From Thermobifida halotolerans (lineage in GTDB: Bacteria; Actinomycetota; Actinomycetes; Streptosporangiales; Streptosporangiaceae): a stretch of 64,000 nt of DNA. Positions 14,956 through 20,526 of the stretch are shown here, piece by piece (positions within the stretch are counted from its first letter, which is position 1; each line of letters starts with the position of its first letter). A program made the position numbers and the translations under genes. The notes below the pieces were generated by a model. It was not told where the DNA came from, ran no database searches, and saw nothing but the letters and a program-made list of their open reading frames with translations. The stretch is taken from contig NZ_CP063196.1 of assembly GCF_003574835.2 (NCBI RefSeq), positions 620,001-684,000 on the forward strand. Direction: 5' to 3'.

Positions 14956-15774
14956 ATGCCGGGCATGTCCTCCGCTCTGCTGCTCGGCCTGGCGCTGGCG
15001 CCCCTCGGCGGCCTCCTCGCCCACCACGCCGGACGCGTCGTCGTGCTGTTCACGGCCCACGACCCCGGCGACGGCGACGACACCGGTCCCGACGACGCCC
15101 CGGGCCCGCCCCCGCCGTCCCTGCCCGGCTCGGGGCGTGCGGTGCCGTGGGCGCGCTGGTCGCCGCTGCCGTGGCGGCTCGTGCTCACCGGACGCGGCCC
15201 CGGAGCGGAACGGGTGGCCGCCCCGTGGCCCGTCGTCGTCGGCGCGGCCGCGGCCTTCGCCGCGGTCGGGTTCTGCGGTGCGCAGCGCTCCGCCGCCGAG
15301 ATCGCGGCCCTGGCCTTCCTCGCGCTGTGGGGAACCCTGCTGACCGCCGTCGACCTGCGTGTCCAGCGCCTGCCCGACGCGCTGGTCCGCCCCGCCTACC
15401 CGGTGGCGCTGGCCCTGCTGGCCGCCGCCGCCCTCACCACCCCCTCCGGCACGTCCTCGGCCGTCGGCGCGCTCGTCGGCATGGCCGGAATGTGGGCGGT
15501 CTACTGGCTGCTGTGGTTCGTCTACCCGCCGGGCATGGGCTGGGGCGACGTCAAGCTCTCCGGTCTGGTCGGCCTCCACCTGGGCTGGTTCGGGCTCGAC
15601 ACGGCGGTCGCCGGAGCAGCCGCCGCCTTCCTGCTCTTCACCTGCGTGGGACTGGTCCTCATCGCGCTGGGACGCGCCGGACGCAGAACCCAGATCCCCT
15701 TCGGACCGTTCATGATCGGCGGCGCGCTCCTGGTGATCCTCCTGGGCGATTCGCTCCCACTGCTCACGGAGTGA
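14956..15774 (+). CDS. A24-family prepilin peptidase
   Basis: This 272-aa polytopic membrane aspartyl protease cleaves type IV pilin-like signal peptides. The two catalytic Asp motifs are visible: [12 protein letters not shown] and [11 protein letters not shown] (GxGD). The N-terminal Cys-rich methylase region of PilD is absent; instead there is one helix and a Pro/Asp-rich loop (residues 30-75), as in reduced actinobacterial homologues. GGAGGAG at 14941-14947 supports ATG 14956. No pilin genes are in the window, so its substrates (tad or competence pilins) lie elsewhere. Confidence 0.88.
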
Positions 15775-15818
15775 GACCGATGTCGCCCTCTGCGGCGGGG
15801 CATGAAAAGATCGGAGTC

Positions 15819-17000
15819 ATGTTGCGCTGGCTGACCGCTGGGGAGTCCCACGGACCGGCACTCGTCGCGATCGTGGAGGGCCTACCGGCCGGCGTGTCCG
15901 TCACCTCGGACGACATCGCCGCCGCGCTGCTCCGCCGCCGCGCCGGGTACGGCCGGGGCGCCCGTATGAAATTCGAGAAGGACGAGGTCTCCCTCATCGG
16001 AGGCATCCGACACGGCCGAACCCTGGGCGGCCCCGTGGCCATCGAGGTGGGCAACACCGAGTGGCCCAAGTGGGAGAAGGTCATGTCTCCCGACCCGGTG
16101 CCCGCCGAGGAGTTGGAGGGGGTCGCGCGCAACGCGCCGCTGACCCGACCCCGCCCCGGACACGCCGACTTCGTCGGCATGCAGAAGTACGGCTACGACG
16201 AGGCCCGCCCGATCCTGGAGCGCGCCAGCGCCCGCGAGACCGCCGCCCGCGTCGCCGCCGGCGAGGTCGCCCGCCGCTTCCTCCGCCAGGCGCTCGGCGT
16301 CGAGATCCTCAGCCACGTGGTCGCGATGGGCAGCGTCAGCGTGCCCGACGACGCATCCGCCCCCGGCCCCGGCGACCTCGCCCGCGTGGACGCCGACCCG
16401 GTCCGCTGCTTCGACCCCGGGACCAGCGCCCGCATGGTCGCCGAGGTCGACGACACCCGCAAGACCGGCGACACCCTCGGTGGCGTCGTCGAGGTCCTCG
16501 CCTACGGGCTGCCGCCCGGCCTGGGCAGCCACGTCCACTGGGACCGCCGCCTCGACGCGCGCGTGGCCGGGGCGCTCATGGGCATCCAGGCCATCAAGGG
16601 CGTGGAGTTCGGTGACGGCTTCCGCACCGCGGCGCGCCGCGGTTCCGCCGCCCACGACGAGATCGAACCCGGCCCCGACGGCGTGCGCCGCCGCACCAAC
16701 CGCGCGGGCGGCGTCGAGGGCGGCATGAGCACCGGCGACCCGCTGCGCGTGCGTGCCGCCATGAAGCCCATCGCCACCGTGCCCCGCGCCCTGGACACCG
16801 TCGACGTGGTCACCGGCGAGCCCGCGCAGGCCCACCACCAGCGCAGCGACGTCACCGCGGTCCCCGCCGCGGGCGTGGTCGCCGAGGCCATGGTCGCGCT
16901 GGTGCTGGCCGAGGCGGCGATCGAGAAGTTCGGCGGGGACTCGGTCGCCGAGACCGCCCGCAACCTGCGCGGCTACCTGGACTCGCTGACCGTCCGGTGA
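15819..17000 (+). CDS. aroC: Chorismate synthase
   Basis: It converts EPSP to chorismate, the last shikimate step, with reduced FMN as cofactor. The 393-aa protein shows the signature regions [70 protein letters not shown] (split here into motifs) and [13 protein letters not shown]. It ends with an [11 protein letters not shown] helix. ATG 15819. It starts the aroC-aroK-[ATPase-TOPRIM]-aroB-efp-nusB run. Confidence 0.97.
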
Positions 17001-17038: not shown

Positions 17039-17557
17039 ATGAGCAGACCCGCCGCGGTGCTGATCGGCTCACCCGGTTCGGGCAAGTCGACCGTGGGGCG
17101 CGCGCTGGCCGACCGGCTCGGTGTCGACCTGCTCGACACCGACGCCGAGATCGAACGGCGCGCGGGCAAACCCATCGGCGACATCTTCGTCGAGGACGGC
17201 GAGGACGCGTTCCGGGCGATGGAACGCGAGGTCGTGGCCGAGGCGCTGGCCGGGGCGACCGGGGTGGTGGCGCTGGGCGGCGGCTCGGTGCTGGACGAGC
17301 GCACCCGCGCCGACCTGGCCGGGCACCACGTCGTCTACCTGGAGGTGGAGTTCGCCGACGCGGCCAGGCGGGTGGGCCTCGACACCGCGCGCCCGCTGCT
17401 GCTGGGCAACCCGCGTGCCCGCCTGAGGGCCCTGCTCCAGGAACGGCTGCCCATCTACCGGGAGCTGGCCACGACCACCGTGTCCACCAGCGAGTACTCG
17501 CCCGAGGAGGCCGCCGACCGGATCGTCGAGGCCCTGGAGGGCACCGCCGATGCCTGA
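17039..17557 (+). CDS. aroK: Shikimate kinase
   Basis: It phosphorylates shikimate with ATP. The 172-aa P-loop protein has GSPGSGKST at residues 10-18, the substrate Asp region [11 protein letters not shown], catalytic ALGGGSVL and the lid [15 protein letters not shown] followed by [19 protein letters not shown] precedes ATG 17039. Its last 8 bases overlap the start of the ATPase gene, so the cassette is translationally linked to it. Confidence 0.96.
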
Positions 17558-18776
17558 CCGCAAACCTCCGCAGATCACCCGGATCAGGGTGCGCAACTAC
17601 CGGGCGCTGCGGGACGTCGACATCAAGGATCTGCGCCCCTTCACCGTGCTGGTCGGCCCCAACGGCAGCGGCAAGTCGACACTGTTCGACGTCTTCGCGT
17701 TCCTCAGCGAGTGCTTCACCGACGGGGTCCGTAGGGCCTGCGACCGGCGCGGCGGGCTACCCGAACTGTTCTCCCGGGGTTCTTCTGGTCCGTTGGAGAT
17801 TGAGATCACCTACCAGAGCGACGTCCGTATCGGGGGAAGACCACGGCGGCGTACACTCTCCTACCTGTTGTCCCTGGACCAGAAGAGGGGAAGGGCCGTG
17901 GTCGACCGGGAGGTGCTCCGCTGGAGCATCTCGCCCGGCCCCGGACGCCCCAACCACATCATCGACTTCCGTCAAGGGCGGGGAAAGGTCGCCGACGAGG
18001 AATCGGGAGTCACAGCCGAACAGGAACTGGCCGCCTCCGACGTGCTTGCGGTGAGCGCTCTGGGACAGTTGCGCAACCATCCGAGGGTGGTCGCGCTAAA
18101 GGAGTTCGTCTCCGGCTGGTACCTGTCCTATCTGAGCGTCGACGACGAGCGCAAGCCCCCCCAGGCGGGGCCACAGGAGCATCTCAGCCGCTCCGGGGAC
18201 AACCTCAGCAACGTCCTGCAGTATCTGAAGGAGGAGCACCCTGAGCGGCTGAACACGGTGATCGACCAACTGCGTCGGGCGATTCCCGCTCTAGGAGAGG
18301 TGACCTACCAGACGTCGCCGGATGGCCGACTCATTCTCATGATGCGGGATGAACCGTTCGACCAGCCGGTCCTGGCTCACTTCGTCTCGGACGGCACCCT
18401 CAAGATGCTCTCCTATCTAGTCATCTTCTCCGACCCGGACATCGCGCCGTTCATCGGGGTGGAGGAGCCCGAGAACTTCCTCTACCCGCACTTGCTGCCA
18501 GGGTTGGCGAGTCTGTGCCGGGAGGCCGCATCGAGGTCGCAGATTCTCGTGACTACCCATTCTCCGGAGTTCGTGGACGAGTGCCAGCCCACCGAGGTGC
18601 TGGCTCTCTACAGAGGGGAGGACGGCTACACCCGGGTGGTCCGCCCCCACCTCATCGAGGCGGTGAACGCGATGATGGACAGCGGAGCGAGGCTCGGGTG
18701 GCTATGGGAGGCCGGGTACTTCGAAGAGCTTCCCAAACCGAGAACCGTCGTGAGGGATTCCGGAGACGAGGAGTGA
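17550..18776 (+). CDS. AAA/ABC-type ATPase of a putative defence pair (OLD/AAA15-21-like)
   Basis: The 408-aa protein has a RecF/SMC-like ATPase layout. The N-terminal strand [17 protein letters not shown] leads to Walker [10 protein letters not shown] (36-44). Next comes a variable middle, the ABC-type signature SDGTLKML (280-287), Walker [13 protein letters not shown] (E305/E306), and switch-His TTHSPEF (335-341). No nuclease domain is fused. This is the COG4637-like ATPase type commonly partnered with DUF4276. It overlaps aroK by 8 bases and the next gene by 4. Codons are visibly less GC-rich at third positions (CTA, TCT, TTG, AAT) than in aroK or aroB, suggesting acquisition. Confidence 0.88.
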
Positions 18777-19423
18777 CGGGGAAGAAAGCCGGTAGTGGAA
18801 AGCCGGGAAACCGTTCCCGTGTCCAGTTGGAGGTCCTCGTCGAGGAGCCGTCGGCACACTGCCTGCTGAACAAGGCCCTGGGAGGATGGATCGGAGCCGA
18901 TCACGTGCAGGTCGGGATCCGCAAGTTCCGAGGCAAGCCCGACCTGCTGGATCGGCTTCCGGTGCTCATGGCCGGATATGCCCGGCAGCGTCGGGAGGGG
19001 AAGGACGTCCGAGTCGTCGTCCTGGTGGACAAAGACGAAGACGACTGCCGGAAACTGAAGACGGAAATGGATGCGATCGCCCGGAGGGCGGGCATGGTGC
19101 CCGACGGCGTTTCCCGCTGTGTCGTCAACCGGATCGCCGTGCGGGAACTGGAGAATTGGTACTTCGGCGACTGGGAGGCGGTGTGCGCGGCCTTCCCCAA
19201 GGTGCGGTCGAAGGTTCCGGCCCCGTACTCCTCCACGCCCGACGCCACGGCGAAGAAGACTTCGGAGGTCTTCGAACGCGTTCTCCGGCAGAACGGGATC
19301 AGGAACTCCAGCAAACCGGACTGGGCCGAACGGATGGCTCCGAAGATGGTCCCCTCGCGTAACCGTTCCGTCAGCTTCCGGGTGTTCATCGAAGGCGTAC
19401 GTCGACTGGTGGAGCAATCATGA
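18773..19423 (+). CDS. DUF4276 (TOPRIM-like) effector partner of the ATPase
   Basis: This 216-aa protein begins with a Lys/Gly-rich tail, then [18 protein letters not shown] (E24/E25) and [10 protein letters not shown] (D86, D88 and neighbours). The next motif is [12 protein letters not shown] (E125, E127). The E...DxD...E order is that of TOPRIM-like nucleases in OLD, PARIS AriB and RloB/AbiLii partners. Assignment to DUF4276 is from these motifs. GTG 18773 overlaps the ATPase stop, and its own stop overlaps the aroB start (ATGA). Nuclease activity and an immune role are inference. A conserved unknown with a housekeeping role is the alternative. Confidence 0.8.
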
Positions 19424-20526
19424 CGGTCACCCGCATCGGAGTCGGAGGCACCTCCGCGCCCTACGACGTGGTCGTGGGCAACGGCATCCTGGCGGAACTG
19501 CCCGGACTGGTCGGGCAGAAGGCCCGGCGGGTCGCGGTCGTCCACCCCGAGCCGCTCGGTTCCATCGCCCATCCGGTGTGCGAGGCGCTGCGCTCGGCCG
19601 GGTACGAGGTCCACCCGCTGGCCGTCCCCGACGGCGAGGCGGCCAAGGACGTGTCGGTGGCCGCGCGGCTGTGGGCGGACCTCGGCGGGGCCGCCTTCAC
19701 CCGCACCGACGTGGTCGTGGGCGTCGGCGGAGGCGCCACCACCGACCTGGCCGGGTTCGTCGCGGCGACCTGGCTGCGCGGGGTGCGTGTGGTCCTGGTG
19801 CCCACCACCCTGCTGGGCATGGTCGACGCCGCGGTCGGCGGCAAGACCGGCATCAACACCGCCGAGGGCAAGAACCTCGTCGGCGCGTTCCATCCGCCCG
19901 CCGGGGTGCTGTGCGACCTCGACACGCTGCCCTCCCTGCCGCGCGCGGACTACGTCGGCGGGCTCGCCGAGATCGTCAAGGCCGGGTTCATCGCCGACCC
20001 GGTCATCCTGGACCTGATCGAGGCCGACCCCGAGGCCGCCACCGGACCCGACGGCAAGCACACCCGCGAACTCGTGGAGCGCGCCATCGCGGTCAAGGCC
20101 GACGTGGTCTCCTCCGACCTGCGGGAGAGCGGCCGCCGCGAGATCCTCAACTACGGGCACACCCTCGGCCACGCCATCGAACGCGCCGAGAACTACACCT
20201 TCCGCCACGGCTACGCGGTCGCCGTCGGCATGGTCTTCGCCGCCGAACTGGCCCGCCTGGACGGCCGCATCGACGAGGCCGCCGTGCGGCGGCACCGCGA
20301 CATCCTGACCTCGGTCGGGCTGCCGGTGCGCTACGACGCCGCGGCCTGGCCCGCCCTGCGCGACACGATGCGGGTGGACAAGAAGGCCCGCGGCGCGACC
20401 CTGCGTTTCGTCGTCCTCGACGACATCGCCGCACCCGCCATCCTGGCCGGTCCCTCCGACACGCTGCTGGCCGAGGCCTACCGGGCGGTGAGTGGCGCCG
20501 CGCCGGACGTGCCCGACACCCACTAG
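19420..20526 (+). CDS. aroB: 3-dehydroquinate synthase
   Basis: It cyclises DAHP to 3-dehydroquinate, the second shikimate step, using NAD and a metal. The 368-aa protein shows PDGEAAKDV, the NAD-binding [38 protein letters not shown] and the GAFHPPAGV stretch. Metal ligands lie in GLAEIVKAG and [12 protein letters not shown]. The ATG overlaps the TOPRIM-like gene stop by 4 bases, so aroB translation now depends on the inserted cassette being read. Confidence 0.97.

Follow-up and report, generated by a model that had tools for sequence, protein, structure and literature searches.

Introduction

In the defence system PARIS, an ATPase senses phage Ocr and its partner AriB cuts tRNA, as described in PMC12409363 and PMC12839542, the former presenting AriB as a Toprim nuclease. 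Dyads of an OLD ATPase and a Toprim protein are also reported from BREX-related loci in PMC12839542. A further set of systems carries the name HEC, for Hma-embedded candidate; according to PMC12988326 (2026), several of these, including HEC-06, proved antiviral in a 2024 preprint. Most searches for defence genes are directed at defence islands, and such scans would miss a module that sits in an essential biosynthetic operon. To our knowledge, no mechanism is known for HEC-01. In the literature that we searched, the term HEC-01 appeared in a defence context in work on Desulfovibrio piger; neither DUF4276 nor PF14103 was mentioned, and no report of HEC-01 immunity or of a DUF4276 activity was found. 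A search on aroK/aroB plus anti-phage yielded nothing relevant by title and abstract.

Results and discussion

The window analyzed here is a stretch of 64,000 nucleotides from Thermobifida halotolerans. Between its aroK and aroB genes lies a pair of genes which, judged by sequence, is HEC-01, a candidate defence system already contained in PADLOC; the location in an aro operon is unusual. The features of the locus are as follows.

17039..17557, + strand: aroK, shikimate kinase (Pfam SKI, E 7.4e-45)
17536..17541, + strand: putative ribosome-binding site of the ATPase gene, GGAGGG, inside the aroK tail (by eye)
17550..18776, + strand: OLD-type ABC ATPase of 408 aa, the HEC-01 ATPase (Pfam AAA_21; PADLOC PDLC04182; predicted model similar to OLD and PtuA structures)
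18773..19423, + strand: DUF4276 protein of 216 aa with a GTG start, the Toprim-like HEC-01 partner (PF14103; PADLOC PDLC04202)
19390..19419, + strand: 3′ end of the DUF4276 gene, the counterpart of the apparent relic in three congeners (24, 23 and 21 of 30 bases identical; in-frame peptides)
19411..19414, + strand: putative aroB ribosome-binding site, GGAG, inside the DUF4276 gene (by eye), retained in the three relics and in the other two intact aro copies
19420..20526, + strand: aroB, 3-dehydroquinate synthase (Pfam DHQ_synthase, E 2.4e-41; DHQS_C, E 6e-43)

A chorismate synthase (aroC) frame lies within 15147-17000, and aroB is followed by efp and then nusB. The overlaps claimed in the original prediction proved exact, with 8 bases shared by aroK and the ATPase gene, 4 by the ATPase and DUF4276 genes, and 4 by the DUF4276 gene and aroB. 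The HEC-01 module lacks intergenic space, and its transcription and translation probably go along with those of the aro operon. A whole-genome search with the ATPase found a single copy at E <= 0.001. The GC content at third codon positions (GC3) was 0.826 for the ATPase and 0.797 for the DUF4276 gene, compared with 0.936 for aroK and 0.954 for aroB, so that the codon choice of the pair is indeed less GC-biased than that of its neighbours. Yet the values are not extreme within the window: 14 of 42 open reading frames had a lower GC3 than the ATPase gene and 10 of 42 a lower one than the DUF4276 gene, in a set of crudely called frames that includes some doubtful antisense ones. On the match to host codon usage, which had been named as speaking against an acquired origin, the outcome by GC3 was thus intermediate.

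The ATPase matched Pfam AAA_21 (E 6.1e-32) and the PADLOC HEC-01 model PDLC04182 (E 1.8e-143). Its predicted motifs were found at the expected places, namely Walker A at 36-44, SDGTLKML at 280-287, EEPE at 305-308 and TTHSP at 335-339, and in an alignment of 13 sequences the residues G36, N38-T44, S280-T283, K285, L287, E305-E308 and T336-S338 were invariant. The predicted structure (mean pLDDT 79.1) gave 365 PDB matches at E <= 0.001, with PtuA and OLD structures closest (OLD 6p74 at E 1.1e-13). The second protein scored 53.8 bits against Pfam DUF4276 (PF14103, E 3.8e-14), above the gathering cut-off of 30.2 and in keeping with the family assignment supposed from the letters alone, and it matched the HEC-01 model PDLC04202 at E 6.3e-65. 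Since both genes match HEC-01 models, the pair represents a new case of a catalogued candidate without a known mechanism. The models for both genes also bear out the earlier view of a defence-type ATPase joined to a nuclease-like protein. The accompanying statement that DUF4276 has no characterized immune mechanism stands in the literature searched, but the pair as such had already been catalogued as a candidate.

We then considered whether the DUF4276 protein could be a Toprim protein. The Toprim layout is a β-α-β-α-β-α-β order with a Glu after the first strand and a DxD motif after the third. The predicted model of the DUF4276 protein (mean pLDDT 86.9) showed the strand and helix order β-α-β-α-β-α-β in an analysis of 13 sequences, with E24/E25 following the first strand and D86xD88 ending the third. 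Among these sequences, E24, D86 and E127 were invariant and E25, D88 and E125 nearly so. The arrangement of strands and acids therefore equals that of the Toprim superfamily. Foldseek searches with the model gave no PDB match at E <= 0.001 (best, lumazine synthase at 9.3e-3) and no viral model at that threshold (best, RloB-like at prob 0.99, E 7.7e-3), and there was no Toprim among the PDB sequence matches. For a profile comparison, 22 of 29 OLD-like Toprim matches were taken and five at contig edges removed, leaving 17. Against these, the profile of 13 DUF4276 sequences reached Prob 49.8, rising to 82.5 upon addition of four other DUF4276 proteins, which alone scored 3.0. The corresponding values were 14.1, 60.0 and 3.2 against a ten-sequence OLD subset, and 0.4, 5.5 and 0.3 against the remaining seven. 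Three control families reached Prob 0.6 at most, and when the ten-sequence OLD set was column-shuffled 40 times, neither of the two larger DUF4276 profiles exceeded 1.3. The residues matched fell in the VEE, GK and DxD stretches. The test is blunt, because the ten OLD sequences themselves scored only 0.8 against RloB. Strand order and conserved acids agree with the Toprim-like layout originally proposed, the profile match to OLD Toprim domains is moderate, and we regard the DUF4276 protein as a likely, not a proven, Toprim.

Comparison with described systems placed the pair closest to HEC-01, with which it shares adjacent genes strongly matching the ATPase and partner models. It differs in lying inside an aro operon, among aroC, aroK, aroB, efp and nusB, instead of within Hma; Hma embedding is the origin of the HEC name and is not required by the PADLOC models. 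PARIS (AriA, AriB) likewise has its Toprim-like partner as a separate protein beside an OLD-type ATPase, but the partner in the window is DUF4276 and not DUF4435, which we take to be the family of AriB; against one DUF4435 sequence the DUF4276 profiles reached Prob 0.1-0.2. RloAB and AbiL are approached by the RloB-like protein that was the best viral fold match, by the occurrence of relatives in hsd loci, and by the profile of the four other DUF4276 proteins, which scored Prob 65.2 against three RloB sequences. The 13-sequence profile, however, scored 0.3 (17.4 with the four added), and the window protein had no Pfam RloB (PF13707) match, only DUF4276. The ATPase fold is shared with OLD nucleases and Gabija, whereas the Toprim-like part in the window is encoded by a separate gene and not fused to the ATPase; in contrast to Gabija, no helicase gene adjoins the pair. 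Finally, the ATPase resembles MAD3 of MADS (E 7.5e-38), but its 130.8 bits fall far below the cut-off of 420, and its neighbours are aro genes.

To place the pair in its wider context, the species-genome collection was scanned with the ATPase, which yielded 12 loci, ten full-length (L021-L030) and two partial (L031, L032). DUF4276 adjoined the ATPase in 10/10 full-length relatives, although these had been retrieved by the ATPase alone; it was not seen next to the two partial ones. Neighbours were surveyed at ten relative loci, where a crude rule gave 102 non-pair frames, 85 of which were scanned against PADLOC (E <= 1e-10; best 25 of 100 matched families). Among the matches listed, at least two of the ten loci were type I restriction loci, and no type I restriction genes were seen at the other eight. 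One of the two, on a contig from the viral collection (L104:3855-11698), had the order hsdM, hsdS, pair, hsdR; the other (L027) had hsdR downstream of the pair and an hsdS-like gene upstream. The association of the pair with defence loci is hence real but partial. At a further locus (L025:9393-13439), the HEC-01-like pair again has a housekeeping neighbour, a purL-like frame that starts 11 bases past it on the same strand. A phage origin of DUF4276 was considered and found unsupported, with no match among 50,697 phage records and matches in 2 of 72,556 plasmid records. Viral contigs gave no match with a single DUF4276 protein and two loci with an alignment.

On balance, we consider it probable that the pair is a two-gene, nuclease-based defence module of the HEC-01 type riding on the aro operon. 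This reading builds on gene identity, co-occurrence, seamless nesting, sporadic presence and relics, and it proposes sensing, nuclease activity, immunity and co-transcription. The OLD-type ATPase would detect a sign of infection and either restrain the DUF4276 protein or set it free; the DUF4276 protein, as a Toprim-like, metal-dependent nuclease, would then cut nucleic acid and stop the phage or the cell. Such a division into sensor ATPase and nuclease effector is modelled on PARIS, as outlined in PMC12409363 and PMC12839542, and on the OLD ATPase/Toprim dyads of PMC12839542. The logic of the HEC-01 pair may accordingly resemble that of PARIS or RloAB. Where computable, dN/dS was 0.05 to 0.28 with dS saturated, which suggests purifying selection.

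The distribution of the pair was in agreement with an accessory character. Of 345 genomes of the order, four had DUF4276 at E <= 1e-12: the window's genome, Nocardiopsaceae bacterium YIM 96095 (G009), Nocardiopsis listeri (G113) and Streptomonospora nanhaiensis (G234). The ATPase (E <= 1e-30) occurred in seven of 200 family genomes, three of them with at least 69% identity (window, G009 and G113), and in one of the four genomes of the genus. At class level, 394 genomes added a single match at E <= 1e-80, which has 53% identity and adjoins a DUF4276 gene. Presence in all relatives, a pattern at odds with acquired defence, was thus not what we found, as 341 of the 345 order genomes are without the pair. 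These absences also weigh against a cellular role in shikimate metabolism or nucleic-acid upkeep in place of defence, as do the relatives elsewhere (L024-L030), which do not adjoin aro genes. Such a role is suggested by the operon position common to three genomes of two genera and by archaeal OLD relatives that can be essential for the cell cycle, as mentioned in PMC12796447; we hold it to be highly improbable.

The aroK/aroB junction was occupied in three of the four order-level carriers (window, G113 and G234, from two genera), while the pair of G009 is located elsewhere and its aro junction is clean. We surveyed this junction in 72 genomes, the best-ranked of 336 with an aroB match out of 341 family genomes. 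Three carried the pair, three had spacers, one had another insert, and in 65 the genes abutted or nearly did so (-1 to 54 bases). The other insert (G062, L098) measures 1272 bases and by eye comprises a phosphoglycerate-mutase-like frame plus a small frame; as the single case among 72, it lends no support to a junction open to many kinds of insert. The three spacers, of 105, 112 and 209 bases, belong to all three other genomes of the window's genus.

Just before aroB, these spacers resembled the DUF4276 3′ terminus. Translated in frame with DUF4276 and up to the same stop, their codons read EVVRQPVEQT, EGVRQRLEQT and QGVQQRVEQP, to be compared with the last 11 residues of the window protein, with EGVHNLLKEQT of N. 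listeri and with QGVRDLVNHR of the copy of G009 outside aro. The other 68 junctions matched the window at 12 of the 30 bases at most at that register; with a shift by one codon, for which values were available for 12 rows, the other two carriers reached 17 and 19 of 30. Among 200,000 random 30-mers from the three loci, none scored 19 or 20, and the 44 that scored 21, 23 or 24 are taken to be the relics themselves. At the peptide level, the three stretches scored 26, 23 and 13 against the window. L038 came next with 6, and no remaining junction exceeded -4; in this scoring, the other two carriers were read one codon out of register. Local alignment placed the first two stretches at the DUF4276 3′ end (39 and 26 bases). 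Taken by itself, the third (L011) is weak, since it aligned best with another part of the pair at a score within the shuffle range; it is counted because of its similarity to the other two. Beyond 30-50 bases the resemblance to the pair was gone. Candidates for more remnants in the rest of the spacers scored within shuffles, and a possible older relic in G056 (L038) was too weak to claim.

On the aroKB tree, the three congeners group together as neighbours of the window (SH-aLRT 92), and a single deletion followed by decay therefore suffices. As the C-terminal pattern is shared with the copy outside aro, the stretch is most simply DUF4276 gene, which probably places the pair in the ancestor of the genus; it was probably deleted later around the aroB signal. 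The recent splice into this genome that the original prediction had envisaged is unlikely in view of the apparent relics that congeners without the genes keep; these suggest long residence of the pair and not a late acquisition. An alternative is that the 30 bases are the old aroB leader of the genus, onto which the DUF4276 gene was fused at its arrival. The four genomes of the genus indeed share the position of this stretch, and the loss of similarity past 30-50 bases would fit; but it retains the DUF4276 frame and stop, shows the G-V/I pattern common to DUF4276 copies outside aro (such as that of G009), and has no counterpart as a leader in the sister genus (L037), which makes this explanation very unlikely. 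In one congener spacer (L009), an 11-base inverted repeat directly after aroK, perhaps terminator-like, was noted by eye.

Returning to the relic interpretation, we found GGAG before aroB in 3/3 intact aro copies and 3/3 relics and in 0/8 copies elsewhere (last 45 bases). A simple reason why just this 3′ end was kept would be selection for aroB translation. The ribosome-binding site of aroB probably lies in the DUF4276 3′ end, so any deletion has to leave this end in place, which is the pattern in the congeners. The same dependence could sustain an addictive or selfish element, a toxin with its regulator that persists without useful immunity because aroB depends on the 3′ end, the sole remainder after loss; the Pfam text on AAA_21 (putative AbiEii toxin, type IV TA system) points in this direction. 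However, the pair was lost in three of the four genomes of the genus, so the host is not tightly bound by it, and two relatives are found in restriction loci. We judge this scenario quite unlikely and retain the defence module as the preferred explanation. The relics then constitute a record of gain and loss, and they hint that the translation signal of a host gene can be a legacy of a defence gene since lost. With three states at one junction (pair, relic and clean), HEC-01 immunity and DUF4276 activity become directly testable.

The shared site could go back to a single old insertion between aroK and aroB in a common ancestor, with vertical descent and many losses instead of repeated transfer. 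The branching order of the pair tree, (window, (G009, (G113, G234))), is that of the hosts, with moderate support (83/79), the carriers have parts of a new aroK tail in common, and amino-acid divergence scaled to aroB fits (ATPase, 0.165 expected and 0.161 seen). On the other hand, scaling to aroK misfits (0.060 expected), the aroKB tree calls for 18 losses (with one gain) versus 3 changes, and two near relatives of G113, with 92-94% identity in aroK and aroB DNA, have clean, direct overlaps. Moreover, the copy of G009 outside aro branches within the aro copies, although the test rejected neither a clade of the latter three (p 0.094) nor a grouping of the window with G009 (p 0.307). We consider common descent possible but somewhat doubtful. 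G113 and G234 occupy separate places within the Nocardiopsis clade, the other surveyed members of which are clean. GC3 of the pair was lowest in G113 (0.637 and 0.677, versus 0.904 for aroK and 0.930 for aroB) and reached its maximum in the window, as would be expected if G113 gained the pair more recently and the window lineage has had it for longer. Transfer of the pair together with aro flanks between carriers was unsupported, G113 following its own sisters up to the junction. The pair cannot be dated by dS, which was saturated or failed for the pair and was depressed by codon bias in the aro genes.

A more far-reaching and, in our estimate, unlikely proposal is that the aroK/aroB junction serves as a recurrent harbour for the module in Nocardiopsaceae. 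There the module would insert with the operon left intact, it would give aroB a translation signal and so not be cleanly lost, reading with an essential pathway would keep defence on, a phage-caused fall in operon expression might act as trigger, and the relics would mark past immunity. Far from aro, one congener (G001, C1:2471640-2471795, L123) contains a DUF4276 fragment over the cut-off in an open frame of 73 aa. It adjoins the truncated N-terminus of an ATPase of another subtype, 28% identical to the window ATPase, and represents a second, decayed system.
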